DNA of 44,560 bases from Sulfuritalea sp. (GTDB taxonomy: Bacteria; Pseudomonadota; Gammaproteobacteria; Burkholderiales; Rhodocyclaceae), in NCBI RefSeq assembly GCF_017302275.1, contig NZ_JAFLDR010000036.1, positions 1 through 44,560 of the forward strand, given 5' to 3'. Shown piece by piece: positions 1 to 44,560 of the stretch. The notes beneath the pieces are model-generated. The model was not told the origin of the DNA, did not search any database, and was given only the letters and a program-made list of their open reading frames with translations. The translations under genes and the position numbers were made by a program. Within the stretch, counting starts at the first letter, position 1, and each line of letters opens with the position of its first letter.

Positions 1-477
1 CGGCCCTGGCGCGCCCTGGCCATGGCGCTGCTGCTGGCGGGAGCGGCCCTGGGCGGCTGGATCGCCCGTGACCAGGCCGGGATGGGGGGCGACAGCCTCG
101 CCCGCAAGGCCGACACGGGGCATGTGATCCTGCACCTCACCGCCTGGGACGAACAGCGGGCGCGCGTCGCCCTCGACGACGCCGAGGGCCTGCTGCGCAC
201 CGCGCGCGAGGCCGGGCAGCCGATCGCCGTGGAACTGGTGGCCAATGCCGGTGGCCTCGACCTGCTGCGCGCCGGCGTTTCGCCCCATGCCGATCGGATC
301 GCTAGGCTGCGCGCCGAACATCCCAACCTGGCCCTGATCGCCTGCGGCCAGACCGTGGAACGCCTGCGCGAGAAAGGCACGGTGGTGCAGCTGCTGCCCG
401 GCACCCGCGTCGCCAGTTCGGCGCTGGACCAGATTGTCATGCGCATGAGCCAGGGATGGTCCTACGTGCGCGTCTGA
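1..477 (+). CDS. DsrE-like protein with N-terminal membrane anchor (5' end outside window)
   Basis: The reading frame is open to the left edge. The first ATG in view is at 22, but the codons before it (RPWRALA) give the positively charged start of a membrane anchor that continues as MALLLAGAALGGW, so the true start is probably upstream. After the anchor comes a domain of about 120 residues resembling the DsrE/DsrF fold: an LHLTAWDE strand, alternating helices and a single cysteine in LALIACGQTVERL, where the family often has its reactive cysteine. The product is probably membrane-tethered and facing the periplasm. The next gene encodes a related exported protein 41 bp downstream, so the two look like an operon. 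The family includes sulfur-transfer proteins; no specific function can be assigned. Confidence 0.6.
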   Translation, partial: RPWRALAMALLLAGAALGGWIARDQAGMGGDSLARKADTGHVILHLTAWDEQRARVALDDAEGLLRTAREAGQPIAVELVANAGGLDLLRAGVSPHADRIARLRAEHPNLALIACGQTVERLREKGTVVQLLPGTRVASSALDQIVMRMSQGWSYVRV

Positions 478-518
478 CAACCTCCCCGCAACCTCTACCC
501 CAACCGAAGGAGAGAACA

Positions 519-956
519 ATGAAAACCATCACCCGCAGCCTGCGTCTGGCCACCCTGGCCGGTGCCTTGTTCGCCGCCGGCCTGCCGGCCCTCGCCGAGG
601 AACCGATCAAGGTCGTGTACCACCTGAACACCGGGTTGGAGCAGGCCAGCGACGCCCTGCGCAACATCCGCAACCACCTGAGCACCGATCCGAAAGCGAA
701 GATCGCGGTGGTCACCCATGCGCGCGGCATCGACTTCCTGCTCGCCGGCGCCGAGGACAAGGACAAGAACCCCTACCACGTGATCGTCGAGGACCTGAAA
801 AGCCAGGGCGTCGAGTTCAAGGTCTGCAACATCACCCTCGAGCGGCGCAAGATCGACCCCAGCAAGGTGATTCCCGAGGCCAAGATCGTGCCGTCGGGTG
901 TCGGCGAAGTGAGCCGCTTGCAGGCGCGCGAGGGTTACGCCTACCTGAAGCCCTGA
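519..956 (+). CDS. Exported DsrE-like protein
   Basis: The 145-residue product starts at the ATG at 519, preceded by a GAAGGAGAGA ribosome binding site; the in-frame extension upstream lacks one. Residues 1-26 form a signal peptide (MKTITRSLRLATLAGALFAA, cleavage after ALA), so it is periplasmic. The mature part resembles the DsrE-like fold (KVVYHLNTG near the start, a helix with NIRNHL) with one cysteine in FKVCNITLERR. It belongs with the upstream anchored DsrE-like gene and probably shares its transcript. A strong hairpin follows the stop codon. A role in periplasmic sulfur or redox chemistry is a family-level guess only. Confidence 0.65.
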   Translation: MKTITRSLRLATLAGALFAAGLPALAEEPIKVVYHLNTGLEQASDALRNIRNHLSTDPKAKIAVVTHARGIDFLLAGAEDKDKNPYHVIVEDLKSQGVEFKVCNITLERRKIDPSKVIPEAKIVPSGVGEVSRLQAREGYAYLKP

Positions 957-964
957 ATCGCACC

Positions 965-987
965 GGGACGGCGGCAATCGCCGTCCC
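965..987. terminator. Hairpin between convergent genes
   Basis: GGGACGGC pairs perfectly with GCCGTCCC across a short loop. It lies 8 bp after the DsrE-like gene and 25 bp from the 3' end of dctM, so it can serve both strands. There is no T-tract, so its strength is uncertain. Confidence 0.5.
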
Positions 988-1011
988 CCGGGCGCCGACT
1001 CTTCGGTACGG

Positions 1012-2328
1012 CTATAGCTTCAGCGCGATCAGCGCGATCGAAGGCACAAAGACGATCAGCGCGATGCGCAGCACGTCGGAGGCGAGGAAGGGAATGATGC
1101 CGATGAAGGTATCCTTCATCGAGGTGTCCTTGGCCATGCTGCTGATGATGAAAACGTTAAGGCCGACGGGCGGCGTGATCAGGCCGATTTCAACCACCAT
1201 CAGCGAGAGGATGCCGAACCAGATCGCCTTGCTTTCAGGATCCAGGCCCCAGAAATCCATGCCCATGATGATGGGAAAGAAGATCGGGATGGTCAGCATG
1301 ATCATCGACAGGCTGTCCATGATGCAGCCGAGGATCAGGTAGATGATGAGGATCACCAGCAGCACCAGCAGGGGCGAAAGTCCGAGGCCCACCACCCACT
1401 TGGCGAGTTCCGCCGGCATCTGGGTCAGCGCCAGGAAGACGTTCATGATGTCGGCGCCGAGCAGGATCAGGAAAATCATCGCCGTCGCCTGCGAAGTGCC
1501 ATAGACGCATTCGAGGAAGCCGCGCTTGGACAGGCCGCCCGAGCGCCAGGCGACGAAGGCGGTGGCCAAGGTGCCGATCGAGGCCGCCTCGGTCGGAGTG
1601 AAGAAACCGCCGTAGATACCCCCAATCACCGCAATGAAAATCAGCATCACCGGCCAGGTCTCGGCGATGGCCTTGAGCTTCTCGGCGAAGCTGGCCCGTT
1701 CGCCGCGCGGCGCGGCCGTGGGGTCGACCCGGGCGATGATGCCGATCACGACCATGTAGCCGACCATGGCGATGATGCCGGGGATCACCGCGGCCATGAA
1801 CAGCTTGGCGATGTTCTGCTCGGTGAGGATGGCATAGATCACCAGCGGCACCGAGGGCGGAATCAGGATGCCCAGCGTGCCGCCGGCGGCGATCGCCGCG
1901 GTGGCCAGGCGCCCGGAGTATTTGTGGTTGCGAAGTTCGGGCAGTGCCACCTGGCCCATGGTGGCCGCGGTGGCCAGCGAGGAACCGCAGATGGCGCCGA
2001 AGCCGGCGCAGGCGCCGACCGCGGCCATCGCCATGCCGCCGCGCCAGTGGCCGATCAGGGTATTGCCGGCGCGGAACAGCGCCTTGGACAGGCCGCCATG
2101 GGTGGCGAACTGCCCCATCAGCAGGAACAGCGGGACCACCGAAAGATCATAGATCGAGTAGCGCGCCCAGGCCGCCGTCTTCATGTAACTGAGCAGCGGC
2201 GAGGGGCCGGCCATCCAGATGTAGCCGACCACGCCGGCGATCATCATGGCCATCGCGATGTGCACACGCAAGGCCATCAGGCCCAGCATCAGGACGCCGG
2301 CGACGGCGCCGGTTTCAATGCCGGTCAT
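1012..2328 (-). CDS. dctM: TRAP transporter large permease (DctM family)
   Basis: This 438-residue protein is almost entirely hydrophobic with about a dozen membrane segments, the usual length and character of the DctM/ion-transporter subunit of TRAP transporters. Typical stretches are GAICGSSLATAATMG, GGTLGILIPPSVPLVIYAI and VEIGLITPPVGLNVFI, including the paired PP-x2-P/L motifs of the family. It forms the substrate and sodium translocation path in the inner membrane with DctQ and DctP. The start overlaps the dctQ stop by 4 bp (ATGA), so the two are translationally coupled. As the last gene of the pad-side block, it probably imports phenylacetate, phenylglyoxylate or a related acid; that substrate is inferred from context. 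Confidence 0.9.
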   Translation of the reverse strand: MTGIETGAVAGVLMLGLMALRVHIAMAMMIAGVVGYIWMAGPSPLLSYMKTAAWARYSIYDLSVVPLFLLMGQFATHGGLSKALFRAGNTLIGHWRGGMAMAAVGACAGFGAICGSSLATAATMGQVALPELRNHKYSGRLATAAIAAGGTLGILIPPSVPLVIYAILTEQNIAKLFMAAVIPGIIAMVGYMVVIGIIARVDPTAAPRGERASFAEKLKAIAETWPVMLIFIAVIGGIYGGFFTPTEAASIGTLATAFVAWRSGGLSKRGFLECVYGTSQATAMIFLILLGADIMNVFLALTQMPAELAKWVVGLGLSPLLVLLVILIIYLILGCIMDSLSMIMLTIPIFFPIIMGMDFWGLDPESKAIWFGILSLMVVEIGLITPPVGLNVFIISSMAKDTSMKDTFIGIIPFLASDVLRIALIVFVPSIALIALKL

Positions 2329-2849
2329 GCTTCGGCTCCGGTGATGTCGATCCAGACGGTATAGAGGGCCGCACAGCCAAGCAGGAAGAAGGATGGCACC
2401 ATCGGCAGGTAGCCGTACCAGGTGGGCAGGTTAAGCAGCATCGAGGCGTCGCCACTATCGTGCAGATCAAGCATGCCCAGGGTGATGCGCCAGGCGAAGA
2501 CGAAGCCGGCGACAGACAAGGCCAGGCTGGCGACGATATCGCAGGCGCGATTGAACTTCTTCGGCGCGTGGACGGTGAAGAAATCGACGATGATGTGGCC
2601 GCGGACCATCTGGCAGAAAGGCAGCGCCATGGTCACGGCAACCGCCGACATCATCTGCACCAACTCATAGTCGCCGAGGATCGGCTTGCTGAACAGGCTG
2701 CGGCCGACAATGCTGGTCAGGGACATCAGGGACATCAGGATTAGCGTGAGACCGGAGCCGACCGCGAACGCGCGACATACCTTGTTCAGCATCCTACCCA
2801 CCAATGCAGTCGGCTCGGCATCCTTGTCGACATAGAGGGCGTCAGCCAT
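2325..2849 (-). CDS. dctQ: TRAP transporter small permease (DctQ family)
   Basis: The 174-residue protein has four predicted membrane helices, as in DctQ subunits. The start at 2849 (MADALYVDKD) is chosen because GGGAGAGAAAG precedes it; an in-frame extension to 2897 has no such site and would run into the terminator. The segment LFSKPILGDYELVQMMSAVA and the later RGHIIVDFFT fit the conserved DctQ region. It anchors the large permease and contacts the binding protein. A strong hairpin with a T-run separates it from dctP upstream, so it is probably expressed at a lower level than the binding protein. Confidence 0.85.
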   Translation of the reverse strand: MADALYVDKDAEPTALVGRMLNKVCRAFAVGSGLTLILMSLMSLTSIVGRSLFSKPILGDYELVQMMSAVAVTMALPFCQMVRGHIIVDFFTVHAPKKFNRACDIVASLALSVAGFVFAWRITLGMLDLHDSGDASMLLNLPTWYGYLPMVPSFFLLGCAALYTVWIDITGAEA

Positions 2850-2895
2850 CTTTCTCTCCCGTTGCGTTCCGTCCGCGACGCAGGTCGGGGACAGC

Positions 2896-2932
2896 AAAAA
2901 AACGCCGGGGCCGGCGGGGCCGGCACCCGGCG
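2896..2932 (-). terminator. Intrinsic terminator or attenuator between dctP and dctQ
   Basis: Read on the minus strand, a GC-rich 12-bp stem (CGCCGGG then GCCGG, one bulged T, 5-nt loop CCCCG) is followed at once by seven T. It lies 14 bp after the dctP stop and 47 bp before the dctQ start. Partial termination here would favour the periplasmic binding protein over the permease subunits, a common arrangement for binding-protein transporters. Confidence 0.8.
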
Positions 2933-2946
2933 GTGCGTCGAGCTGC

Positions 2947-3978
2947 TTACTTGGTGTACTTCTTGATCAGGTCCTGAGCCGCCTTGAACAGCTTGGGACC
3001 ATCATGGCCGGCCTTGGTCATGTTGGCCATCCACTCGTCATCAAGCGCGTCGGTGGCCTTCTTCCATTTGTCAAGTTCGGCGGCCGGGATCACGTTGATC
3101 GCCATGCCCGCAGCCTTGCTCTTCTCGCGGCCGGGGCCGTCGTCGGCTTCCTGCACGCGGCCGGCCATGGCGGAGAACTCGATGCCCGAATTGGCGTCGA
3201 TCACCTTCTTCAGGTCGGCCGGCAGGGAATCGTACTTGGCCTTGTTCATGGCGATGGTGAACACCGTGGTGTACAGCGCCTTGGACTTGGGATCGGTCTC
3301 CGCGCCGAACTTGGCGATTTCATTGACCTTGATGCTCGGCACCACCTGGTAGGGAATAACGGCGCCGTCGATAACCCCCTTGGACAGCGCCTCGGGCACG
3401 GCCGGAACCGGCATGCCCACGGGCGTCGCGCCCATCGAGGCCAGCATCTTGTTGGTCAGGCGGGTCGGGGCGCGGAACTTCATGCCCTTGAAGTCTTCCA
3501 TCGACTTCATCGGCTTCTTGGTGGTGAACAGGTAGCCGGGGCCATGGACATGGACGGCAAGGACGTGAACATCCTTGAACTCGTGCTTGGCATACGTCTG
3601 GGTAAAGTCCCAGGCAGCGCGGCTGGTGGCTTCCGCGTTGGTCATGGTGAAGGGCAGTTCGAAGATTTCCGACATCGGGAAGCGGTTGGCCGAGTAACCG
3701 AGCACGGTCCATACCACGTCGGCGACGCCATCCTTGGCCTGGTCGAAGAGCTGGGGCGGCGTGCCGCCGAGCTGCATGGCCGGATAAATCTGGCACTTGA
3801 TGCGGTTGTTGGATTCCTTGCCCAGCTTGGCGCACCACGGCTCAAAGACGCCGGTATGGATGAAGGTCTGGGCCGAAAGGAAGTGGTGCACCTTGAGGGT
3901 GACCTCCTGAGCCTGAACCGCGAAGGCGGTGCCGGCGATCGATGCGGCAATCAGGGTTTTTGCAAACAGCTTTTTCAT
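2947..3978 (-). CDS. dctP: TRAP transporter periplasmic solute-binding protein (DctP family)
   Basis: The 343-residue protein begins with a signal peptide ending FAVQAQ and is preceded by GAGGAGACGTAG. The body follows the DctP pattern: LKVHHFLSAQTF at the N-terminus, the block MKFRAPTRLTNKMLASMGA with the arginine that usually binds the substrate carboxylate, then PVPAVPEALSKGVIDGAV. It captures an organic acid in the periplasm and delivers it to DctQM. It is the first transporter gene after padJ, with 222 bp between them, and may have its own promoter. The ligand cannot be read from sequence; an aromatic acid is the context-based guess. Confidence 0.9.
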   Translation of the reverse strand: MKKLFAKTLIAASIAGTAFAVQAQEVTLKVHHFLSAQTFIHTGVFEPWCAKLGKESNNRIKCQIYPAMQLGGTPPQLFDQAKDGVADVVWTVLGYSANRFPMSEIFELPFTMTNAEATSRAAWDFTQTYAKHEFKDVHVLAVHVHGPGYLFTTKKPMKSMEDFKGMKFRAPTRLTNKMLASMGATPVGMPVPAVPEALSKGVIDGAVIPYQVVPSIKVNEIAKFGAETDPKSKALYTTVFTIAMNKAKYDSLPADLKKVIDANSGIEFSAMAGRVQEADDGPGREKSKAAGMAINVIPAAELDKWKKATDALDDEWMANMTKAGHDGPKLFKAAQDLIKKYTK

Positions 3979-4200
3979 CTACGTCTCCTCATTGATGGCG
4001 GCGTCGCCGCCTTATTTAAATTGCGAACAAATCCAGCAGAATACTTGTGATACATGAATCAGCGCACCTTATACCACAACGGAAACCAAGGTATTGCATG
4101 CCAAGCCGCCCAACTAAAATGCACTATATTTCACGTTTATACGCAAGCTATGCGAACAATACTACACCAATTTCCAATTAATGATTTGATCTCCAGCAAT
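3979..4200 (-). other. Intergenic leader of dctP with hairpin
   Basis: This gap is AT-richer than its surroundings, as expected for a promoter, but several weak -10-like stretches are present and none is decisive. A perfect 7-bp hairpin (GGCGGCG, one base, CGCCGCC) lies at 3997-4011, just upstream of the dctP ribosome binding site, and could affect mRNA stability or translation. One GATACA half-site lies at 4049-4054 without a partner. Confidence 0.4.
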
Positions 4201-5520
4201 TTATTTGGGCCTTTTATCGACGACCCGCCTTGCTTTGCCGACCAGGGTGCGCTCGACCTTGTCCGTATCGACCACGTGCACCGTGGACGAAACGCCGACC
4301 AGCACCTTGATGCGATGCTCGACCTCCGCACCGATTTCCCTGCGCCGTTCCTCGCTGGTCTTGTCGGACAGGTCGGCACGCACCTCGACGAAGACATCCA
4401 GCTTGTCGAGATGGCCGTCGCGCGACACCTGCAGCTGGTACTGCGCGCAAAGATTCGGGTTTTTCAGCAGGATTTCCTCGATCTGCGTCGGAAACACATT
4501 GACGCCGCGAATGATCAGCATGTCGTCGCTGCGGCCGGTGATCTTTTCCATGCGCCGCATCGGGCGCGCGGTGCCGGGCAGCAGGCGCGACAGGTCGCGT
4601 GTCCGGTAGCGCAGGATGGGCAGTGCCTCTTTCGACAGCGAGGTGAACACCAGTTCGCCCATTTCGCCGTCGGGCAGCACCTCCCCGGTTTCGGGATGGA
4701 TGATTTCCGGATAGAAATGGTCTTCCCATATGGTCGGGCCGTCCTTGGTCTCGGCGCATTCGCAGGCCACGCCCGGCCCCATGACTTCCGACAGGCCGTA
4801 GATGTCGATGGCGTCGATGTTGAGGCGCGCTTCGATCTCGCGCCGCATTTCATTGGTCCAGGGTTCGGCGCCGAAAATGCCGACGCGCAGGCTGGTCGCG
4901 CGGGGATCGATGCCCGCCTTGATCATCTCGTCGGCGACGGTCAGCATGTAGGACGGCGTGCAGCAGATGACGGTCGGCTTGAAGTCCTGGATCAGCTGGA
5001 TCTGCTTTTCGGTCTGGCCTCCGGACATCGGGATCACCGTCGCGCCCAGGCACTCTGCGCCGTAATGGGCACCCAGGCCACCGGTGAACAGGCCGTAGCC
5101 GTAGGAATTGAGGATGATGTCGTCGGCGCTGCAGCCCGCCGCCCGCATCGAGCGCGCCATCAGCTGCGCCCACATCGCGATGTCGTTCTTCGTGTAGCCG
5201 ACCACCGTCGGCTTGCCGGTGGTGCCCGAGGAGGCATGGATGCGCACCACGTCGCGCATCGGCGTCGCGAACATGCCGAAAGGATAGGTATCGCGCAGGT
5301 CGAGCTTGGTGGTGAAGGGAAACTTCGCGAGGTCGGCCAGCGTCTTGAGGTCGTCCGGATGCACCCCGGCGGCGTCGTATTTCTTGCGGTAGTGCGGCAC
5401 GTTTTCGTAGGCGTGCCGCAGCGACCATTTCATGCGCTGCAACTGCACGGCTTGCAACTCGTCGCGACTTGCCTTCTCGATGGGCTCCAGATCCTTGCCC
5501 TGCTCTTCCTGCTTGCTCAT
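4201..5520 (-). CDS. padJ: Phenylacetate-CoA ligase
   Basis: This 439-residue AMP-forming ligase matches the usual length of the PaaK/PadJ family. It makes phenylacetyl-CoA from phenylacetate, ATP and CoA in the cytoplasm. The P-loop SSGTTGKPT lies near residues 97-105, YGLSEVMGPG is the adenylate-binding motif, and IIRGVNVFPTQIEE begins the mobile C-terminal domain. The start at 5520 (MSKQEEQGKD) follows AAGGGGAGCTAC; longer in-frame starts lack a good site and would cross a repeat element. It is the last pad enzyme gene, downstream of padI, in the order described for anaerobic phenylacetate clusters. It could in principle also feed an aerobic pathway, but no paa oxygenase genes are present. 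Confidence 0.92.
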   Translation of the reverse strand: MSKQEEQGKDLEPIEKASRDELQAVQLQRMKWSLRHAYENVPHYRKKYDAAGVHPDDLKTLADLAKFPFTTKLDLRDTYPFGMFATPMRDVVRIHASSGTTGKPTVVGYTKNDIAMWAQLMARSMRAAGCSADDIILNSYGYGLFTGGLGAHYGAECLGATVIPMSGGQTEKQIQLIQDFKPTVICCTPSYMLTVADEMIKAGIDPRATSLRVGIFGAEPWTNEMRREIEARLNIDAIDIYGLSEVMGPGVACECAETKDGPTIWEDHFYPEIIHPETGEVLPDGEMGELVFTSLSKEALPILRYRTRDLSRLLPGTARPMRRMEKITGRSDDMLIIRGVNVFPTQIEEILLKNPNLCAQYQLQVSRDGHLDKLDVFVEVRADLSDKTSEERRREIGAEVEHRIKVLVGVSSTVHVVDTDKVERTLVGKARRVVDKRPK

Positions 5521-5566
5521 GTAGCTCCCCTTATCGCTCATGACTTCGATGAACCAACCGGCATCA

Positions 5567-5696
5567 TGAAACACCATAACGTAGCAACAGCCAAGGCTGG
5601 CAATTGGGCCCGCCCCTCCCATCCTCCCCCAAGGGGAGGCTACTGATCAGATCGCTTGGCTCGTCAATCACCCCGCGCTTCCAACAAGCGATTTCA
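5567..5696 (-). repeat. Dispersed G-rich intergenic element, copy D (inverted orientation)
   Basis: This copy fills the padI-padJ gap. Read on the minus strand it starts with GTGAAATCGCTTGTTGGAAG, continues through GATCAGTAGCCTCCCC, a GC hairpin and a run of four G-tracts (GGGGG, GGG, GGGG, GGG), and ends GTGTTTCATGAT. The ends TGAAAT and GTTTCA form a near-perfect terminal inverted repeat. The same layout occurs at 14873-14982, with related copies near 27978 and 31840. The element begins one base after the padI stop codon. Confidence 0.65.
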
Positions 5697-5698
5697 CG

Positions 5699-7051
5699 CT
5701 AAATGGCTTCTCGATGCGCCATTTGTTTTACGAACGCGAGATTCTCCACGACCTTGGACTGTATGTGTGAAACCTGATCCGGACTCAGGTGGCGGAAACG
5801 CCCCATCGCCTTGAGATACTCGGTGACAGGCAGCGGATCATCGACCGGCCTGGTGAAGTGCAGGCCGTCGGTCGGGTTGTACTCCCACAGCATGACGAAA
5901 TTGGTTTCGACCGCCTTGCGCGCGACTTCCATGTTCTGGTCGGTCGGAAAGCGCCAGCCCGTGGTGCAGGGCGAATACACGTGCAGGTAGGCAAAGCCGC
6001 GCTTGGAGGCCTGGATCGCCTTGTCGAGCTTGTCGTAGAGGTCGTCCATGTAGGCCGTCGAGGCCGTTGCGACATATTCGCAGCGGTGGTTGACCATGAT
6101 CAGCGGCAGGTTCTTGGCGTCCTGCGTCTTGCCCTGCGAGGGAATGTTGCCCGGGCCTTTGCCGATCGGCGTGGTCGAAGTCCAGGCGCCGTAGGGCGTG
6201 CAGCTCGAACGCTGCATGCCGGTATTCATGTAGCCCTCGTTGTCGACCACCATGAACAGGATCTGCTCGTTGCGTTCGGCGGCGCCCGACAGCGACTGGA
6301 AGCCCACGTCGGAAGCGCCGCCGTCGCCGGCAATGGCCAGCGCCGTGACATCGCGCCCGACCCGCTTGTACTGGCGCTTGACGCCGGCCAGCATGGCAGC
6401 TGTGTTGGTCAGCAGCGGATGGAACACCGGAATCTTGGTCCCGGTGGTGCCGTTGAAACCGACCGAACCCATGCCCGGCACGCAGCCCGGCGGTGTCGCC
6501 AGCACAGTATCCGGCCCGACGCGGCGTAGCGTGTGGCGCATCAGCAGTTCGGTATTGCAGCCCTGGCAGCCGGCGAGGCCGGGAGCGAAGAGATCCTCCC
6601 AGTCGCCGACTTCGTTGTAGATGCGCGAGGTGGTGACGTAGGTCAGCGCATCGTGCGGGCAGGCCGGGACGCAGGCCGGCGCACCGTCGCAGGTATCGCA
6701 CTTGGCGACGTGGCCGGTGCCGGCATCGAGGGCGATGCCGGCATAGGCGCAGCCGACGGTGCACAGCAGGCAATCGACGCACTTGTCCGCGTTCCAGTCG
6801 ATCACGCCGCTCGCGTAGTTCTTGGTCAGCGCCGCTGCCGGACAGACCGTGACGCACTTCGGATCGGCACACTGGCGGCACAGCGCGAGTTCGAAGCCCT
6901 CATCCGCACTGCCGACGATCTGGATGCGCGAGCGTGACTGATCGACGGTACCCGTCTTGGCAGTCGCACAAGCCGTCATGCAATCGCCGCAGCCGTCGCA
7001 TTTGTTGGCATCGAAGGCGATGGTGTTGTAGGCCCCTCCAAACATTCCCAT
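5699..7051 (-). CDS. padI: Phenylglyoxylate dehydrogenase, TPP-binding beta subunit with four-cluster ferredoxin domain
   Basis: The 450-residue protein joins two modules. Residues 1-140 hold sixteen cysteines in four groups (C18/21/24/28, C58/61/66/70, C91/94/97/101, C118/121/127/131), enough for four [4Fe-4S] clusters and resembling DmsB-type electron-transfer subunits. Residues 160-450 are the thiamine diphosphate domain of 2-oxoacid:acceptor oxidoreductases, with GDGGASDVG at 242-250 and DNEGYMNTG at 270-278. With PadG it decarboxylates phenylglyoxylate and forms benzoyl-CoA. The size fits the roughly 50-kDa subunit known for this enzyme. The ATG at 7051 follows TGGAGATAAGC, 2 bp after the padH stop; in-frame codons further upstream lie inside padH. 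Confidence 0.9.
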   Translation of the reverse strand: MGMFGGAYNTIAFDANKCDGCGDCMTACATAKTGTVDQSRSRIQIVGSADEGFELALCRQCADPKCVTVCPAAALTKNYASGVIDWNADKCVDCLLCTVGCAYAGIALDAGTGHVAKCDTCDGAPACVPACPHDALTYVTTSRIYNEVGDWEDLFAPGLAGCQGCNTELLMRHTLRRVGPDTVLATPPGCVPGMGSVGFNGTTGTKIPVFHPLLTNTAAMLAGVKRQYKRVGRDVTALAIAGDGGASDVGFQSLSGAAERNEQILFMVVDNEGYMNTGMQRSSCTPYGAWTSTTPIGKGPGNIPSQGKTQDAKNLPLIMVNHRCEYVATASTAYMDDLYDKLDKAIQASKRGFAYLHVYSPCTTGWRFPTDQNMEVARKAVETNFVMLWEYNPTDGLHFTRPVDDPLPVTEYLKAMGRFRHLSPDQVSHIQSKVVENLAFVKQMAHREAI

Positions 7052-7053
7052 GC

Positions 7054-8310
7054 TTATCTCCACAGCTTCGACATCAGTTCGCGGCCGACGGCCAGGGGAT
7101 TCGCCAGGAAGCGCTCCTTGACCGGCGCCAGATCGACGCGGCGCAGGATCAACTGGCACATCACGCCGCCGTCGAAGAATTCATTTACGCCGTAGATTCC
7201 CGTCAGGCGGTTGTCGGCACTGAAAATCGCCTTCAGGTAGCGGCCGCTGGCTTCGTCGAAACGCGTCACCATCTCGCCGCCCTCGGGCACCTTGCTGCTG
7301 CCGACGGAAATCGCATGGCGGCCGAAGAAGTGATAGGTGTTGAGCGGCACGCCGCCGGGATATTTCTTCAATCCCGGATCCTCTGCCATCGCCATGCCAG
7401 CGATGCGGCCCTGCTCCGTGGCGTCCGGCAGGATCGCGTTCATGATCTTCGCATCGGTGTAGAAGCCCTTGGCCTGGGCACAATCGCCGGCAGACCAGAC
7501 ATTGGCGACGCTGGTCTGCATGGTGTCGCTGACCAGGATGCCGCGGTCGTGTTCGACCCGGCTGCCCGCCAGATACTCCATGTTCGGCTTGACGCCGGTG
7601 GCGACCAGCAGCAGGTCGGCTTCGAGTGTCGTGCCGTTTTCCAGCGTCAGGGTGGCTCCGGTTGCAGAAGGCGCCAGCTTGACTACGCGGCTGCCGGTCA
7701 GGATCAAGGCGCCGTTGTCGGTAAAGGCTTTCTCGATCAAGCCGGCTGCGATCGCATCGAAATAGCCATCGGTCAGCTGCTTGGCCATCTCGACGATGGT
7801 GACCGAGGCGCCGGCCTTGACCAGGTTCTCGGCCGCGTGCATGCCGACCAGACCCGCGCCCAGCACCACGGCCTGTTTCGAGTTCTTGATTGCGGCGTTG
7901 AGTTTCGTCGCATCGTCCAGCGTGCGCAGTACATGGTAGGACACCTGGTCGAGGCCGGGAATCGGCGGAATGGCAGGCGCCGCGCCGGTGGCGAGCAGGA
8001 TCTTCTCGTAGGCGATCTCGCTGCCGTCGGCGAGTTCAGCCGCGTTGCGTTCCGCGTGCAGAGCTTTCAGCGCGGTGCCGCGCTTCAACTGCACCTTCTG
8101 CCTGGCAAAGAACTTCTCGTCGCGCAGAAATATGGCATCGGGCGCCGAGCGGCCGGAGACGACATAGGGCAGCACGGTCGGCGAATACGGCAGGTGCGGA
8201 TCGCGCGTCAGCAACGTCAGGCTGCCGTCGGGGTCGTGCATGCGGATCGCCGTCACCGCTTCGAGCGCGGCGTGGCTGCTGCCGACCACCAGGTATTTGG
8301 TCTGTTCCAT
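7054..8310 (-). CDS. padH: Phenylglyoxylate dehydrogenase, FAD/NADH-binding subunit
   Basis: The 418-residue protein is a two-dinucleotide-fold flavoprotein of the NADH-dependent oxidoreductase class. The N-terminal KYLVVGSSHAALEA binds FAD and the middle QAVVLGAGLVGMHAAENLV binds NAD. A later segment, NVWSAGDCAQAKGF, is the second FAD contact found in this fold. It passes electrons from the iron-sulfur subunits to NAD+. I use the ATG at 8310 because AAGGATTGACC precedes it; an upstream TTG at 8316 is less likely. It starts 2 bp after the padG stop and is followed 2 bp later by padI, so the operon is tightly coupled. Confidence 0.9.
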   Translation of the reverse strand: MEQTKYLVVGSSHAALEAVTAIRMHDPDGSLTLLTRDPHLPYSPTVLPYVVSGRSAPDAIFLRDEKFFARQKVQLKRGTALKALHAERNAAELADGSEIAYEKILLATGAAPAIPPIPGLDQVSYHVLRTLDDATKLNAAIKNSKQAVVLGAGLVGMHAAENLVKAGASVTIVEMAKQLTDGYFDAIAAGLIEKAFTDNGALILTGSRVVKLAPSATGATLTLENGTTLEADLLLVATGVKPNMEYLAGSRVEHDRGILVSDTMQTSVANVWSAGDCAQAKGFYTDAKIMNAILPDATEQGRIAGMAMAEDPGLKKYPGGVPLNTYHFFGRHAISVGSSKVPEGGEMVTRFDEASGRYLKAIFSADNRLTGIYGVNEFFDGGVMCQLILRRVDLAPVKERFLANPLAVGRELMSKLWR

Positions 8311-8312
8311 GG

Positions 8313-9560
8313 TCAATCCTTTTCGTTAAGCCAGACCGGCTCGATCGGTGCCGGATTGCTCAGTAGCTTTTCGGTGGCTTCGATGACGCGATGGAAATGG
8401 CCGACCGTGATGTCGGCGCCGGCCAGGCCGCCGATGAAGCTCATCGACGGAATGTGGCGCCCGAGGCGATACAGCACACCCATGGTTTCCTGATACATCG
8501 GCCCGCAGTTCCAGCGGAAGCCCACCGAACGGTCGACCACGCCCAGCGCCTGGATCTTGTTCAGCGACTTCAGCAACGCCTCGACCGGGAAGGGGCTGAA
8601 GGTCTTGATCTTGATCAGGCCGACCTTCCTGCCGGCGTCTCGCGCTTCGTCGATCGCGTCCTTGGCGGCGCCGGTCATGCTGCCCAGGGTCATGATCGCG
8701 TAGTCGGCGCCGTCGAGGCGGTATTCCTCGACCAGTGGCGCGAAGCGGCGGCCGAAGCGCTGCGCCCACTCCTCGTGGATTTCCTCGATCACGCGCAGCG
8801 AATTCTGCATGCCCTTGCACTGGCCCTTGCGATAGCGGACGAAGGTCGACGGCCCCTTGCCGCCCGAACCGCCGGTCAGCGGGTCGACCGCCATCGGCCG
8901 CAGCGGATCGAGGGCGACGTGCCAATTCACGTCCTTGGCACCCATGAAGGCATCGACGTCTTTCTGGTTCGGCAGTTCGACACGCGAGGTGCCGTAGGAC
9001 AGGTAGTTGCCGTCGAGGCAGACGTTGACCGGCAGCATCACGTCGTGGTGCTCGGCGATCTTGAAGGCCATGATGGTGGTGTCGAGCACTTCCTGCACCG
9101 TCTCGCAATACACCTGCACCCAACCCACTTCGCGCACCGTCATCGCGTCCTGATGCCCGCCCCAGACCGACTGCGGCGTGATGCCGTCGCGCGTGACGAT
9201 GGACATGACGATCGGCAGGCGCATGCCCGAGGTGCGGAAATAGGGCTCGAACATGAAGGCCAGGCCCGGTCCGCAGGTCGCGGTGTAAGTGCGCGCGCCG
9301 GCCAGCGCCCCGCCCTGCAGCACGGACAGCACCGAATGCTCGCCCTCGGCATCGACGATGTCGGCATCCATCTTGCCGTCGGCGATTAGCTTGGCGACAT
9401 GCTCGACCAGCGAGGATTGGGGCGTGATCGGATATACGGCGACCATGTCGGGGCGCGCCAGGGCCACGCCCAGCGCGGCGGCCTCGTTGCCTTCGACCAG
9501 CATCACCTTCTGCCTGGCCGGCGCCGGCGCAGATGGCTTCTCCAATGTGCTTGCGCTCAT
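8313..9560 (-). CDS. padG: Phenylglyoxylate dehydrogenase, alpha subunit
   Basis: The 415-residue protein matches the alpha subunit of pyruvate:ferredoxin-type oxidoreductases. Near residue 43 is VYPITPQSSLVEH, followed by DAEGEHSVLSVLQGGALAGA and TATCGPGLAFM, the region that faces the TPP cofactor of the partner subunit. The C-terminal half carries the usual Rossmann-like domain (GADYAIMTLGSMTGAAKDAI). It works with PadI on phenylglyoxylate, CoA and NAD+ to give benzoyl-CoA. GAGGGAGGCCGC is its ribosome binding site. Upstream, a 13-bp duplication separates it from padF, where most neighbours overlap or are 2 bp apart. Confidence 0.9.
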   Translation of the reverse strand: MSASTLEKPSAPAPARQKVMLVEGNEAAALGVALARPDMVAVYPITPQSSLVEHVAKLIADGKMDADIVDAEGEHSVLSVLQGGALAGARTYTATCGPGLAFMFEPYFRTSGMRLPIVMSIVTRDGITPQSVWGGHQDAMTVREVGWVQVYCETVQEVLDTTIMAFKIAEHHDVMLPVNVCLDGNYLSYGTSRVELPNQKDVDAFMGAKDVNWHVALDPLRPMAVDPLTGGSGGKGPSTFVRYRKGQCKGMQNSLRVIEEIHEEWAQRFGRRFAPLVEEYRLDGADYAIMTLGSMTGAAKDAIDEARDAGRKVGLIKIKTFSPFPVEALLKSLNKIQALGVVDRSVGFRWNCGPMYQETMGVLYRLGRHIPSMSFIGGLAGADITVGHFHRVIEATEKLLSNPAPIEPVWLNEKD

Positions 9561-38950: not shown

Positions 38951-39190
38951 ATGGTGCCGGAACCGGAATCGAAAATACTAGCCAACGCCAGCAACATCAA
39001 TGGTTGATGGAAGTGAAGTTTTTAGAAATGCCCCCATCGATGCCCCCTAGATCCACGCGCTTTGCGGTGCTGCGCAGTATATCCGCGAGAAACCACCTCC
39101 CTGCCGAGCGATCCAGGGGACGCGGGATTGACGATCAACAACAGTGAAGCCCGGTCACTCCAGGGACCACACAGGCAAAAAAACCGGCCG
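38951..39190. other. Non-coding stretch at the edge of the replication module
   Basis: No convincing gene is seen here. It contains the repeated ATGCCCCC-ATCG-ATGCCCCC near 39030-39049 and becomes AT-richer to the right. It may hold the DUF1178 promoter and the junction between chromosome and mobile module, but I see no tRNA, integrase or clear attachment repeat. Confidence 0.4.
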
Positions 39191-39439
39191 ATTCCGTGGA
39201 AAATGCATAAAGCATTCAATATCCGCCAATACAACAATACGTTACATAAGTATCACTATCCACGGATTCCCCTGTAATTCTGTGGATCATCCACAGGTCG
39301 ATTTACGCACCTAGTCAAATCAATAGCTTACGTTGCCGCTGTTCCACGGAATTCCCCTGATTTGGGCCAAAACTCCACGGAATCGTTTTTCCATGACATT
39401 TGGATTCTGTGGATTGCGCCGCTCCCATCAAATGCCTGT

Positions 39440-39495
39440 CTTTCTTCTCTTTCTCTTTGATTTTATTAAAAGAAGAAGAAGAAGAGCGGAGAAAG
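39440..39495. other. Pyrimidine/AT/purine tract in the origin region
   Basis: A pyrimidine run (TTTCTTCTCTTTCTCTTT), then GATTTTATT, then a purine run (AAAAGAAGAAGAAGAAGAG and onward). In this GC-rich genome it is the least stable DNA nearby and a good candidate for the unwinding site of an origin. Confidence 0.5.
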
Positions 39496-39505
39496 GCGAA
39501 AAATC

Positions 39506-39589
39506 GACCCGTGGAGAAAACAGGCGATTCCGTGGAGAATTGAACCAATTCCGTGGAGATTGAGAACGATTCCGTGGAACAGAAAAACC
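39506..39589 (+). repeat. Four tandem 21-bp iterons
   Basis: The repeats begin at 39506, 39527, 39548 and 39569, each exactly 21 bp from the next, two helical turns, so bound proteins would lie on one DNA face. The first copy is degenerate (GACCCGTGGA); the other three begin ATTCCGTGGA. Confidence 0.75.
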
Positions 39590-39749
39590 CGTTTGTGGCG
39601 TCGTATAGCGGTTTCGGTCAATAAATCCACGGAATCCACGGGTTTTTCATTTTCTATGTGACCTCCAAGCGCCCGTTCGCTACCTGCGAAACCAAATCGC
39701 GCGCCTCGGTTGACGGTATGCAGGGGTTCCTGGACGAAGCCAAGTCAGC

Positions 39750-40414: not shown

Positions 40415-43198
40415 TCACTTAACGTACCTGTCGAATTTCGGCGTCGCGTGAAGGCCAAGCCGGTCAAGCTTGGCCAGGCTGATCGCCGTCAGGTGCGCTG
40501 TCCTGTTGCCTCGAATCGATCGCTCAGCATCGTCATCGATCACCACGCCGCTCGCCTGGAGCTGCTGCTTGAACACACGCCCGGTTTTGATCGGCAAGGC
40601 GTCGAATTTGCCCCGCAGGTGCGGCGCGGTCGAGATATGGTCCATGACGTGCGATGGCCGAATGAACAGCGCCGGCTCGATAGCGCCAGGAGAAACCGGG
40701 ATGGTGTCCCAGCAGTGGGGATGCTCGAACCGGTTCGCATCGATTTCCGACAGCAGGATCTCCATGATCCAGACCCATGGCAGACGGATGCCATCCGTTT
40801 CGGCGATATGTTCATTCATTTCCGCAACCAGATCGCCGGCAAAGCCACCTTGTTCGATGTCGATGTCGGCGAACTCGCACAGCAAGTGCCAGGCCATGAG
40901 AATCACGGCATAGTTTTCCATCATCCGGCGGCCGGTGGCGTCGTCGACACTGGTTCGCGAATGCTGCTGGCAATACTCCTGGCATTGCCGATACATCGCT
41001 TTCACCTTGTCCGTTCCGGTCTTTTCCAGAAACTGAAGCCACTGCCAGACGGGGAACTGGGGCAGATCATGCGGAATCAACGGCCCCTGCTTTGCCGAGG
41101 TCAACGAGCTGCGGCAGATCTTCGATTGCAGCGAGGCGACATCCACTTCCTCGCCGGCGAGCAGCACCGGGGCACACATGAGGTAAGGCGTAAGGCCTGC
41201 CCCCACGCGCGTGAATTCGAAGCGATAGGTCGACTGCAGCAGTCCGTCGATTTCAGAAAGCACCATCTTTGGCAGCTTGGAGAATTCGTCCCAGCCTACC
41301 GGATGGCTGGTATAGCTGACTGAGGCGCGGCGCCGATGGTCCGTCTTGAGCATCTGGCCGGATAGCACCTGGAAGGCGAGCGCCGCTTGCATGGACTCCA
41401 GTAGCTTCGATTTTCCGGACCCCTTTTCGGCCTGCATCTGGAAATGCGGATAGAAGCCCAGGATCGCCTTCAGATGGGCACCCAAGGCCCATACGAGGGG
41501 AATGGCGGCGGCATTGGCCTTGAACGTGGCCTGGTAAGCCTCAACCACGCGGCGAGCGTCCTGAACGCTGCCACGGGGGAAAATCATGTTGTGGTAGAGA
41601 CACTGCTTGGCCGGTTCGATGAAGAAGCAGTCATTCCCCTCCAGTGCCGCCGGCGAGCCCGCACGCCAGGCCAGCCCGACGAAATTGACGACATCCCGGG
41701 CACCGAGCGCAGCAGACCGCTCCAGGATGTTCAGCATGCGCTGGAACTGCGCCGGCTTGAAGATCGCGCCAAAGCGGGATCGCCACCAGTCAAGATTGAA
41801 TAGCTGGCGATCGTCGACAACTTCCCGCTGCAAGATCACTCCATGCCGCGGCGATTGCGCGCTGATGCCGAACACCGTTTCCGATTGGGTGTCCGGGGTG
41901 CCATTGATCGTGGCCAGGTGGCCCTGTACACGCAACCGCGAGAATCCGGCCAGCCGAAACGAGCACAGATCGCCGATCGTTTCTCTCCGCTGGCCGCCTT
42001 CATCATCCTTCCACTCGTCGACGTACTGGGTGAAATCCTCGCGCACCCGGTAGCGCCAATACACCTTGAAATCGTGTTCAGGGAGAAATATCCGGCGCGT
42101 GCCCTGCAGGCCTTCGCCACCGCCCGGCATCCCTGGAATAAGCCATTCCTCCAGCTTGCGCAGGCGCCGCCAGAGGTCATCGACTCCGCCGGTCTTCAGC
42201 ACGTCGTTGATGTCCTCGCCCTCTTCCCAATCCTGCATGTCCACCAGCATGGCGCTGATCTCGCAGGCCGTGAGCCGTTCGGAAAGTCGCCATGCGGCGG
42301 CGAGCCCCGGGCGCTGCCCTGTCCGCTCGTTCACCGGGTCGGTGTGATCCAGGGCGATGATGAGGCGCTTGCCCTTGAGAAAGGCCAGATCCTGCTTGTC
42401 GGCATTGCCGGTGCCCCGCAGCGCCAGGACGGCTGTTCCATTGGGGATGGGACAGCTCTCGACCGATAGCGCGTTGATCGGCGACTCGACCACGTACACG
42501 GTGTGTGCCCGCGTCAATCGCGGCAGATCGCTTGTCCATGCAATGCCTTCCTTCCTGCCCTGGCACTGAGTCTTGACGCCGCCGTTTAGCGCAGGATCCG
42601 CGAACCTCATATCCACTGCCTCGACCAGCCGGGTCTCGATCGAGCGGACGATAAAGGCGGCGGCCGGCCCGCCGTGTCCCGCTTCATTGGGCGCAATCTT
42701 GTCGTTGGTCCAAGTGTTCCAACCAAGGGTTTTGAGCTGGATGGCTTTCCTGATAACTGCATCGTCGATGCCGCGCCCGGCCAGGTAGGACACTACCGGT
42801 TCCGGGTTCTCGACACAGCGATCGGCGATGTACTCGGGAATGCTCTTCTGGCTACGTTTGCCCTTGGCCTGCGGGCTCTGCCGTGGAAGACTGATGCCGT
42901 ACCAGTCCCCCAGCAACAGGGCGGCATCCATTGCAGACTCGATCTCCGGCCGGCAATACAGCACGAGGTCAATGCAACTGCCTCCGGCGCTTCCATCCGA
43001 AGACCAGTCTTTCCATCCGCGAGCGTTGGGAGTTATCGACAGCGACGGCGTCTTGTCGCGATGGTGCGGACTCTGATAGTTGCCGTTGTCGCCCTTCCTG
43101 CGCAGCCCCAGGCGTTCCGCCAGGTTATGCAGATCGATCGAGGATTTCAGCGCATCGAAATAGCCGGATGCGGGCTGCGCAGGAAGGTTGGCGCCCAT
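40415..43198 (-). CDS. Toprim/P-loop primase-helicase of a mobile replicon
   Basis: The protein of about 927 residues starts best at 43198 (MGANLPAQPASGYFDALKSS). Residues about 40-75 follow the CHC2 zinc-finger outline of DnaG-type primases (YQSPHHRDKTPSLSI) but lack the four cysteine ligands. Residues about 232-330 form a Toprim domain (TVYVVESPINAL, RLIIALDHTD, GEDINDVL). Near residue 592 is a P-loop, EKGSGKSKLLES, with LSEIDGLL further on as a likely Walker B, suggesting a helicase or ATPase domain. Similar primase-helicases initiate replication of satellites and integrative elements. The iteron array 0.8 kb beyond its 3' end is a plausible target. The precise family is not identified. 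Confidence 0.75.
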   Translation of the reverse strand: MGANLPAQPASGYFDALKSSIDLHNLAERLGLRRKGDNGNYQSPHHRDKTPSLSITPNARGWKDWSSDGSAGGSCIDLVLYCRPEIESAMDAALLLGDWYGISLPRQSPQAKGKRSQKSIPEYIADRCVENPEPVVSYLAGRGIDDAVIRKAIQLKTLGWNTWTNDKIAPNEAGHGGPAAAFIVRSIETRLVEAVDMRFADPALNGGVKTQCQGRKEGIAWTSDLPRLTRAHTVYVVESPINALSVESCPIPNGTAVLALRGTGNADKQDLAFLKGKRLIIALDHTDPVNERTGQRPGLAAAWRLSERLTACEISAMLVDMQDWEEGEDINDVLKTGGVDDLWRRLRKLEEWLIPGMPGGGEGLQGTRRIFLPEHDFKVYWRYRVREDFTQYVDEWKDDEGGQRRETIGDLCSFRLAGFSRLRVQGHLATINGTPDTQSETVFGISAQSPRHGVILQREVVDDRQLFNLDWWRSRFGAIFKPAQFQRMLNILERSAALGARDVVNFVGLAWRAGSPAALEGNDCFFIEPAKQCLYHNMIFPRGSVQDARRVVEAYQATFKANAAAIPLVWALGAHLKAILGFYPHFQMQAEKGSGKSKLLESMQAALAFQVLSGQMLKTDHRRRASVSYTSHPVGWDEFSKLPKMVLSEIDGLLQSTYRFEFTRVGAGLTPYLMCAPVLLAGEEVDVASLQSKICRSSLTSAKQGPLIPHDLPQFPVWQWLQFLEKTGTDKVKAMYRQCQEYCQQHSRTSVDDATGRRMMENYAVILMAWHLLCEFADIDIEQGGFAGDLVAEMNEHIAETDGIRLPWVWIMEILLSEIDANRFEHPHCWDTIPVSPGAIEPALFIRPSHVMDHISTAPHLRGKFDALPIKTGRVFKQQLQASGVVIDDDAERSIRGNRTAHLTAISLAKLDRLGLHATPKFDRYVK

Positions 43199-43277: not shown

Positions 43278-43664
43278 TCACACTGCCACCATGCTGTCGA
43301 ACTCTGTGTTCGCCTCACGGAATTGTCTGCTCAAAGGCATCAACAAGCACAGCACGCTGCCCGCGTTGATCTCGCTCTCGGTCATATGAGAGAGCATCTC
43401 GATGAGGCCGTTGAGCCCACATTGAAACGATTTGAATTCGTCATCGATCGCGTCAACGACAATGCACAATGTCGCTATCCGATTGCTTATCTCGTTGATT
43501 TCAGCTTGAGCCTTGTCCTGCGCGCTCAGCGAACCGCCAATCTCGCCGATCAGTTGAGCAAGACGACGGTTAGATGAAAAGATTTTATTGATCAGGTCAA
43601 AATTTTCCTGACGGTCCAAATTCCTGAGTTTCTCGTGCAGCGTTGGGTATCCAGGGTTGCTCAT
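43278..43664 (-). CDS. Helical protein of unknown function
   Basis: A 128-residue, probably all-helical protein (MSNPGYPTLHEKLRNLDRQE at the start, coiled-coil-like centre QAEINEISNRIATL). It has an excellent AAGGAGACACAAA ribosome binding site and its ATG overlaps the upstream stop by 4 bp. I do not recognise it. It lies immediately before the primase gene in the same direction, so a role in regulation or replication is possible. Confidence 0.6.
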   Translation of the reverse strand: MSNPGYPTLHEKLRNLDRQENFDLINKIFSSNRRLAQLIGEIGGSLSAQDKAQAEINEISNRIATLCIVVDAIDDEFKSFQCGLNGLIEMLSHMTESEINAGSVLCLLMPLSRQFREANTEFDSMVAV

Positions 43665-44455
43665 TTTGTGTCTCCTTGGTAATTTCCCAGCCTGTTCCTG
43701 CGCAATAGGGCGCTGAGCGTGGCGCAGAGGATGTCGCGGCCCTTGTCATTGCAGCGGCGCAGCAGGTGTATCAGCTCCACTTCCCGTGGGTTCGTCCGCC
43801 ACCAGCCCAGCTCCATGGCCAGCACGCGGGCGGCGTTGTGCCATGCGCCGGTCAGGCGTTTGGATGAAGCCTCCATATCTGGCAGGGGGGGCGCTTTCAG
43901 CGGTGCGTGGCCGAGTTCCTGGTAGGCGTAGATACCGACCTGTCTTAAAACGGCGAACATCGCCTGCTCACGCGGCGTGGCCGGCGATACCGGCGGCAGC
44001 TCGCTGGTGCAGTAGTGCGGCACCTTGTAGACGCCGGCGCAGCGTTCGGCGAGGCTGAGCTGCCACGGGTGGTCTTTCTGAATGCAGATGGCGACCTCAT
44101 AAAGGTGGCCGATGCCGTCTTGCGTGAGTCGGTTCCGCCCTAACAGGAAGCTGGCTTCGTCGTTTGAGATCGCCTCCCAGCCCAGCTTCCAGGCGGCCAT
44201 GAACGTGGCCTCGATCTGCTCGGCGGATGGCAGCGGCGTGCTGGCATTGACCGGTACGGACTCGGGGGGCGGACGCCGGGTACCGTGGGCGTGTTCCATT
44301 CCGGAACGCCAGCCCAGCGTGCGCAGGGCGACGAACAGGGCATGAATACTCGCCGGGGTCGGCGCGGGCAGGGTACGGCGGGCGGGTTTTTTCGGTGCAG
44401 CGGTGGATTTGCCCTTGGTGGGCGTCTTGAACCTATTGAGACTTCCGTAATTCAT
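43661..44455 (-). CDS. Protein of unknown function
   Basis: A 264-residue basic protein. The N-terminal 35 residues are rich in lysine, proline and threonine (TPTKGKSTAAPKKPARRTL). The rest has two similar-looking segments, ALFVALRTLGWRSGME and TFMAAWKLGWEAIS, followed by LLGRNRL and later LLRRNRL, which suggests an internal duplication. No known domain is recognised. Both ends overlap the neighbouring genes by 4 bp (ATGA), so it belongs to one operon with the primase. Confidence 0.65.
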   Translation of the reverse strand: MNYGSLNRFKTPTKGKSTAAPKKPARRTLPAPTPASIHALFVALRTLGWRSGMEHAHGTRRPPPESVPVNASTPLPSAEQIEATFMAAWKLGWEAISNDEASFLLGRNRLTQDGIGHLYEVAICIQKDHPWQLSLAERCAGVYKVPHYCTSELPPVSPATPREQAMFAVLRQVGIYAYQELGHAPLKAPPLPDMEASSKRLTGAWHNAARVLAMELGWWRTNPREVELIHLLRRCNDKGRDILCATLSALLRRNRLGNYQGDTK

Positions 44456-44560
44456 GACATCACCACAGCGTAGCCTGCATCCAGCACGCAGCGATGATCG
44501 AAGGGCGTTTCTGAGCGCTCTTGAGTTTGTTTCGCGCGGTCGCGTGCAACTCGCCCAGGT
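44452..44560 (-). CDS. C-terminal end of an unidentified gene (5' part outside window)
   Basis: An open frame enters from the right edge and ends with a TGA that overlaps the next ATG (ATGA). The visible 35 residues end FDHRCVLDAGYAVVMS. The overlap matches the other junctions of this operon, which is the main support. No function can be given. Confidence 0.45.
   Translation of the reverse strand, partial: PGRVARDRAKQTQERSETPFDHRCVLDAGYAVVMS

Follow-up and report, generated by a model that had tools for sequence, protein, structure and literature searches.

A probable iteron-type replication origin beside a primase-helicase gene in a phage-derived element of Sulfuritalea sp.

Introduction

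The closest described systems are the self-loading helicases of two groups of mobile elements, Rep of the SaPIs and Cch and Cch2 of SCCmec. According to the excerpted text of a study of these proteins (PMC7581432), SaPI Rep helicases recognise downstream iterons via their C-terminal domain, and the isolated C-terminal domain of Cch2 binds its putative origin; in the same excerpt, the short-repeat origin lies just downstream of the helicase gene, as it does in the locus described here. This locus was found in a stretch of 44,560 nucleotides from Sulfuritalea sp., analysed as a whole and called the window below. It differs from SaPI Rep and Cch in that its helicase carries a Toprim primase fused into one polypeptide and shows no DUF927 sequence match, and in that the iterons are CC-centred, about 8 bp long and placed around a pyrimidine/purine tract. 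The named hosts differ as well, being what we take to be Betaproteobacteria, save for one Microcystis phage without the tract.

The alpha protein of satellite P4 also combines primase and helicase activity in one protein, as here; its primase class and its iterons differ from those of the present system. In P2, protein A forms a rolling-circle origin system, which fills the same functional slot in P2-like phages. The gene table in the available part of one article (PMC3091744) carries no homologue of P2 A or B for phages KS5, KS14 and KL3, which fits replacement of the rolling-circle system. There KS14 is described as a plasmid prophage, and its listed genes include RepB (PMC3091744); gene 37 of KS14 (NC_015273) is this RepB initiator, and since it is listed alongside the primase and origin, KS14 may have two replication systems. 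A search of the open-licence literature found no description of the origin reported here.

Results

A short-repeat array flanks a pyrimidine/AT/purine tract

Within positions 39191 to 39635 of the window we found seven exact copies of ATTCCGTGGA, four on the forward and three on the reverse strand, together with three sites of one mismatch and one site of two mismatches. The array comprises the following features.

39191..39200, + strand: iteron, exact ATTCCGTGGA, at an offset of about +261 from the tract in primase-strand orientation
39259..39268, - strand: iteron with one mismatch (site search)
39277..39286, + strand: iteron with one mismatch (site search)
39343..39352, - strand: exact iteron (site search)
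39374..39383, - strand: exact iteron (site search)
39404..39413, + strand: iteron with one mismatch, corresponding to the site near +48
About 39440..39495, no strand: pyrimidine/AT/purine tract that recurs across the family; proposed site of opening and priming
39506..39515, + strand: degenerate iteron ACCCGTGGA, first of four in the 21-bp register
39527..39536, + strand: exact iteron, 21-bp register
39548..39557, + strand: exact iteron, 21-bp register
39569..39578, + strand: exact iteron, 21-bp register
39626..39644, - strand: two abutting inverted iterons, one exact (from 39626) and one with two mismatches (from 39635), corresponding to the inverted site near -175

Sites with at most one mismatch numbered ten in this 454-bp region, against a mean of 0.03 and a maximum of 1 in 300 single-base shuffles of the region, and the remainder of the window held three. 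Among the matches listed for the 4,409,354-base assembly, eight were exact copies of ATTCCGTGGA, of which seven lay inside the array. The initial annotation had spoken of about a dozen sites: ten are clear, and the number rises to 11 with the two-mismatch site and to 12 with the degenerate register site. Its four sites spaced by exactly 21 bp were recovered, the motif CCGTGGA starting at 39509, 39530, 39551 and 39572; three of them are exact sites and the first is the weaker copy. The tract that the sites were said to flank is also present, with the register sites beside it.

The array lies in a phage-derived element inserted at a tRNA-Leu gene

The surroundings of the array had been taken for chromosomal sequence. 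This proved incorrect, as the array sits in a phage-derived element that starts at a copy of the att site. The limits of the element in the window are as follows.

38952..38973, - strand: att site, 22-nt copy of the 3' end of tRNA-Leu(UAA), boundary between element and chromosome
44434..44560, no strand: end of a repeated element, assembly break inside the repeat

Sequences from three loci of the same genus (L051 to L053) match the window across the end of MutS and DUF1178, as far as position 38973. In one of them (L051, genome G014), the sequence past the end of homology continues into a tRNA-Leu(UAA) gene. In the genome of the window, the intact tRNA-Leu gene and the chromosome that follows it are on a separate contig, C1. 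The att copy aligned with the 3' end of this intact gene (G000:C1:8528-8550) over 23 nt with one gap (95.7%), the copy being one base short of the intact gene sequence. Beside the C1 tRNA gene we found a tyrosine integrase, whose ORF is full length, a Psu-like protein, an E-type tail chaperone, a tape-measure protein and an Ogr-like regulator. From the att copy, the stop in homology and these phage genes it follows that the window ends inside an inserted phage-derived element; the att sequence is common to both contigs, and we therefore infer that their two ends belong to one element. The array thus belongs to a phage-derived element that has integrated into a tRNA-Leu gene at its 3' end.

The presumed other end of the element (positions 1 to 8368 of locus L086, on C1) also encodes a HAD-like protein next to the tail genes, and a small ORF beside the tRNA gene looks AlpA-like by eye and has no match to any family. 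Its gene content corresponds to a reduced P2-like or satellite-like set. The families of the sheath (PF04984, Phage_sheath), of D (PF05954, Phage_GPD) and of the P2 capsid (PF05125, Phage_cap_P2) gave no match across the assembly, so that, of the genes expected of a P2-like prophage, the E-type chaperone, the tape measure and the Ogr-like regulator were found and those three were not. The element is accordingly decayed, satellite-like or incompletely assembled. The last 127 bp or so of the window (44434 to 44560) recur at ten other places among the matches listed, mostly at contig ends (contigs C34, C28, C55, C1, C74, C69, C45, C42 and C44). This segment is a multicopy repeat that breaks the assembly, perhaps an insertion sequence.

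The adjacent gene encodes a Toprim primase fused to a Cch-like helicase

Near the array, and on the reverse strand, lies the gene of a primase-helicase with the following features and neighbours.

40415..43198, - strand: primase-helicase, 927 residues from the ATG at 43198 (phrog_5629, Toprim, AAA+ by fold)
40478..40657, - strand: C-terminal winged-helix domain, residues about 848-907, from predicted secondary structure (the name winged helix is our reading)
40496..40519, - strand: wing segment from Ser894 to Ala901, of which the two end residues covary with iteron positions 1 and 4
43278..43664, - strand: small ORF upstream of the primase, weak similarity to DUF1484 below the cut-off
43661..44455, - strand: ORF upstream of the primase without family match, first bases overlapping the repeated element

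The primase ORF as listed extends to a GTG at 43318 (967 residues). It matched phrog_5629 with 1055 bits over residues 55-962, that is, over the full protein, and its reading frame is uninterrupted across the length of the family. A Toprim_3 domain was identified, the match to a CHC2 zinc ribbon was weak and below the Pfam cut-off, and the AAA+ helicase was recognised by fold. Twenty phage records, some of them duplicate accessions, carry relatives of 46-51% identity; 19 of the records belong to Burkholderia phages and the remaining one to a Microcystis phage. A further 14 relatives came from genome contigs, all with titles that we assume to denote Betaproteobacteria. Among whole genomes, 12 of the 399 from the order and 2 of the 369 from the class had a match, the genome of the window being counted in both. 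The phrog_5629 primases of KS5, KL3, KS14 and AP3 are homologous (46-51% identity) and share the origin layout; their iteron variants differ. A plasmid replicon of the RepA, RepE or Pi type was considered and rejected, since three family scans of the window proteins around the array (7, 5 and 6 proteins) revealed no plasmid Rep family.

A first structure model of the protein had a pLDDT of 64.7 and was poor in the helicase. It was replaced by a model of residues 341-927 (m0ad5b4c1ad64, pLDDT 88.7) built on a deeper alignment of the window protein with 64 of 67 references (L124, L232 and L275 were left out). Its best match in the PDB was the SCCmec helicase Cch (5dgk_A; E 1.8e-12, TM 0.50/0.55, 13% identity), which assigns a Cch-like AAA+ fold; the structural matches that followed Cch include MCM helicases and NrS-1. 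No match to DUF927 or Primase_Cterm was obtained in 65 family members (E up to 1, within the filters of HMMER), and in the absence of a DUF927 match the window primase is not classed as a member of the SaPI Rep/Cch group. In the model, residues 894 and 901 (554 and 561 in model numbering) are on the two strands of a hairpin (546-555/558-567) that comes after a helix (533-543). We read this predicted hairpin as the wing of the C-terminal winged helix.

The origin layout is conserved beside homologous primases

The initial annotation had paired an iteron-type origin with the nearby primase-helicase and proposed a search for similar arrays near homologous primases. This search supports the pairing, and the absence of such arrays, which would have counted against an origin, is not what was found. 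After a first, stricter cut, 82 of 105 loci had the tract downstream of the primase, and in 61 of these 82 the distance to the end of the primase match was at most 500 bp. In a larger set examined with a looser cut, it was present in 146 of 174 unique loci. To obtain this set, four of 243 loci were removed where the match did not reach residue 900, identical C-terminal DNA was collapsed (239 to 174) and L049 was dropped in favour of a joined stretch of KS14. The loose score cut probably admits at least one false tract, that of L124. Read in primase-strand orientation, the tract in several relatives is approximately TCTTTCTCTTTTTCTTTAAAAATCAAAGAGAAAGAGAAAGAAAGC. It was undetected in 28 of the 174 loci, seven of which have less than 700 bp of downstream sequence; among the other 21 are the Microcystis phage, three loci of about 61% identity (L044, L104 and L105) and numerous contigs with 46-51%.

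We searched for the 21-bp iteron motif with a finder that accepts a place only where two sites lie about 21 bp from each other. It succeeded in 132 of the 146 tract-bearing loci and, within those loci, at 49 of 438 random places. Its scores exceeded the random 95th percentile in 123 of the 146 loci and the random maximum in only seven. Among the upstream spacings listed, 185 of 213 successive ones were exactly 21 bp. A plain count of the best 8-mer separated the two partly (5-13 in origin windows, 3-11 in random windows). Site positions were compared in 37 loci, made up of 34 primase clusters together with KS5, AP3 and KL3; L124 and most non-representative members of multi-member clusters were left out. 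Sites recurred near -175 (inverted), -117, -96, -75, -54, +48, +80, +110 (often inverted) and +175, and the offsets from the tract were alike in 34 of the 37 loci despite the varying motif. Part of the Burkholderia group shows this pattern displaced by between a few and about 20 bp. The best 8-mer had no relation to the motif in L101, L112 and L117, and one motif picker chose unrelated motifs in several Burkholderia-group loci. These comparisons show a conserved geometry of the sites and a drifting repeat sequence. The layout is that of the P2-like Burkholderia phages KS5, KL3, AP3 and KS14; the window repeat, which had matched no plasmid or satellite family known to the initial annotation, is therefore one variant of a family found in P2-like phages.

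An AT box, most often of the form GCCTATTTTTT (74 cases), was found 40-160 bp past the tract in 98 of the 146 loci, a count taken without background. In AP3 (L071, 6781-7392), Momento (L074, 6868-7479) and Mana (L077, 6820-7506) the origin region is annotated as protein-coding, as a 'putative baseplate J family protein' or as hypothetical. The ORF that covers the tract in these phages may be spurious.

Repeat bases and primase residues change together

Iteron positions were numbered N1-C2-C3-N4-C5-G6 (for example T-C-C-A-C-G). Among 21 related primases of the Burkholderia group, grouped by eye into 14 with GCCA and seven with GCCC iterons, six protein columns separated the two groups fully, all of them within residues 815-901. 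Pairings were then counted in 129 loci with at least four sites (14 of 146 loci without the motif and 3 of 132 with fewer than four sites were left out). A crude substring rule for the iteron class was dropped because it mis-framed runs of C (for instance in L036, L205, L206 and L220), and a frame set with position 4 masked was used in its place. Where position 4 was A, residue 901 was Ala, Pro, Gly, Ser or Asn in 103 of 103 loci. Arg901 occurred with C in 16 of 17, the seventeenth (L221) also having C when framed by its flank. Of the eight loci with Gln901, six had T, and the remaining ones, L184 and L186, had TCCTCGG sites when read by eye. One exception, L224, has C-type iterons with Gly901. 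Its relative L202, also Gly901, carries mixed A and C iterons, those of L224 being mostly C, and from their sequences the two look like an intermediate in a change of specificity. At position 1, G was accompanied by Arg894 in 57 of 57 loci and T by Thr, Ser or Val in 61 of 61; in the nine loci with C, residue 894 was Ile, Arg, Ser or Thr, three of them having Arg. The iterons of the window fit its own Ser894 and Ala901.

When the 898 columns were ranked by normalised mutual information, 901 came out on top for position 4 and 894 for position 1. The leading columns for positions 5 and 6 were weak, and most of them fell outside the C-terminal domain. In a tree calculated from residues 1-800 (256 branches), 12 of 13 changes at position 4 coincided with a change of class at residue 901, in about five separate lineages, the remainder being switches within the KS5/AP3 group. 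At position 1, four of seven changes coincided with a gain of Arg894. When full residue alphabets were used in the branch test, columns 847 and 819 were stronger than 901 for position 4, and column 91 was stronger than 894 for position 1. The associations were also examined in clusters, each base-residue pairing being counted once per cluster. In 59 clusters at 90%, a base other than A at position 4 was associated with Arg or Gln at 901 (7/1 vs 0/54; Fisher p 1.6e-8), and G at position 1 with Arg894 (11/0 vs 3/45; p 1.3e-9). In clusters at 70% the associations were weaker yet persisted (p 1.8e-5 for position 4 and 1.1e-3 for position 1). The frames of L184, L186 and L221 had been set by eye before the branch and cluster tests. 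This covariation suggests how the enzyme recognises its own start site.

Discussion

As judged from sequence comparison, the array is very probably an origin of replication belonging to a P2-related prophage or phage-derived element, whose adjacent self-loading, primase-fused initiator would read the iterons with its wing. In this protein a Toprim primase is combined with an AAA+ helicase like those of Cch and SaPI Rep and with a predicted winged helix at the C terminus. Once the element has excised, this last domain would bind the iterons on both sides of the tract, where the 21-bp register, equal to two helical turns, would bring four sites onto the same face of the double helix. Rings of the helicase would then assemble on both flanks and, opening the tract, load themselves; the first primers would be made by the primase portion. 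In this manner the iteron/primase system would take the place of the rolling-circle protein A of P2. The system appears to work like SaPI Rep and Cch2, by analogy with the recognition of origin repeats by their C-terminal domains, and a repeat origin downstream of the gene, as in the SaPI Rep/Cch type, was found here in most relatives. An initiator helicase with an iteron origin is thus of a known kind; the residue-base pairing and the fusion of a primase with this layout look new.

A more detailed scheme is offered tentatively, and we would sooner doubt it than adopt it. The scheme comprises a two-position wing code and a tract that would set a bidirectional start and so switch a P2-type phage from rolling-circle to theta replication. 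Residue 894 would read base 1 and residue 901 base 4, with Arg facing G, Gln facing A and small residues making no contact. The tract has a two-fold pyrimidine/AT/purine form and would offer a pyrimidine template where the outward leading-strand primer of each strand starts; as both strands would receive such a template, one small element would set a bidirectional start.

Could the covariation reflect linkage only, the 3' end of the gene and the adjacent origin being exchanged together without direct contact? The tract is usually close to the end of the primase match, the iteron type flips repeatedly among near-identical primases of the Burkholderia group, and the many switches inside the KS5/AP3 group could be due to recombination moving both at once. 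However, the pairing of Arg901 with C recurs in separate lineages of the tree (AP3-like phages, the Thauera locus L036, L205/L206/L220 and L221) and that of Arg894 with G in four; such recurrence is not expected from linkage alone. The pairing also holds where the array is 2.1-4.6 kb from the gene (KS14-like loci, L205/L206/L220, L221 and L036). We therefore regard linkage alone as unlikely. We consider it more improbable still that the sites bind another protein, such as host DnaA, a phage repressor or an integrase, the primase being merely a neighbour. The DnaA-box consensus is TTATCCACA; some iterons are ATCCACA-like and resemble part of it, and a DnaA-box-like site was found near the tract in 37 of the 146 loci. 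Such sites nevertheless look like an extra feature and not like the iterons themselves, 22 of them being near offset -190, beyond the iterons (background in these loci 0.007 per 600 bp). Moreover, the iteron core shifts to CCCCGAG, TCCTCGG or TCCCGCAA, unlike a DnaA box and in step with residues 894 and 901. A cluster of DnaA boxes was rejected, as these cores of homologous arrays depart from the consensus.

Recognition of the iterons by the adjacent primase-helicase thus remains our preferred reading for the family. For the copy in the window itself, the element is decayed or incompletely assembled and this copy may be inactive. It may even be dead, given that sheath, D and P2 capsid families are unmatched in the assembly, and the element is interrupted by a multicopy repeat. 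That the array is a relic with no present function in this genome is a serious possibility, which we hold to be somewhat less probable than its opposite: the primase frame is uninterrupted over the length of the family, the iterons of the window fit the primase's own Ser894 and Ala901, and the integrase ORF at the other end is full length.

For P2-like phages that lack protein A, in which the open-licence literature examined describes no origin, these results provide a candidate origin with a precise layout. The array and the primase family form a natural record of an initiator and its origin changing together. With this record and the candidate layout, origin recognition by self-loading helicases becomes testable residue by residue and base by base. 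The results may also have a bearing on whether given related prophages are able to share a cell.
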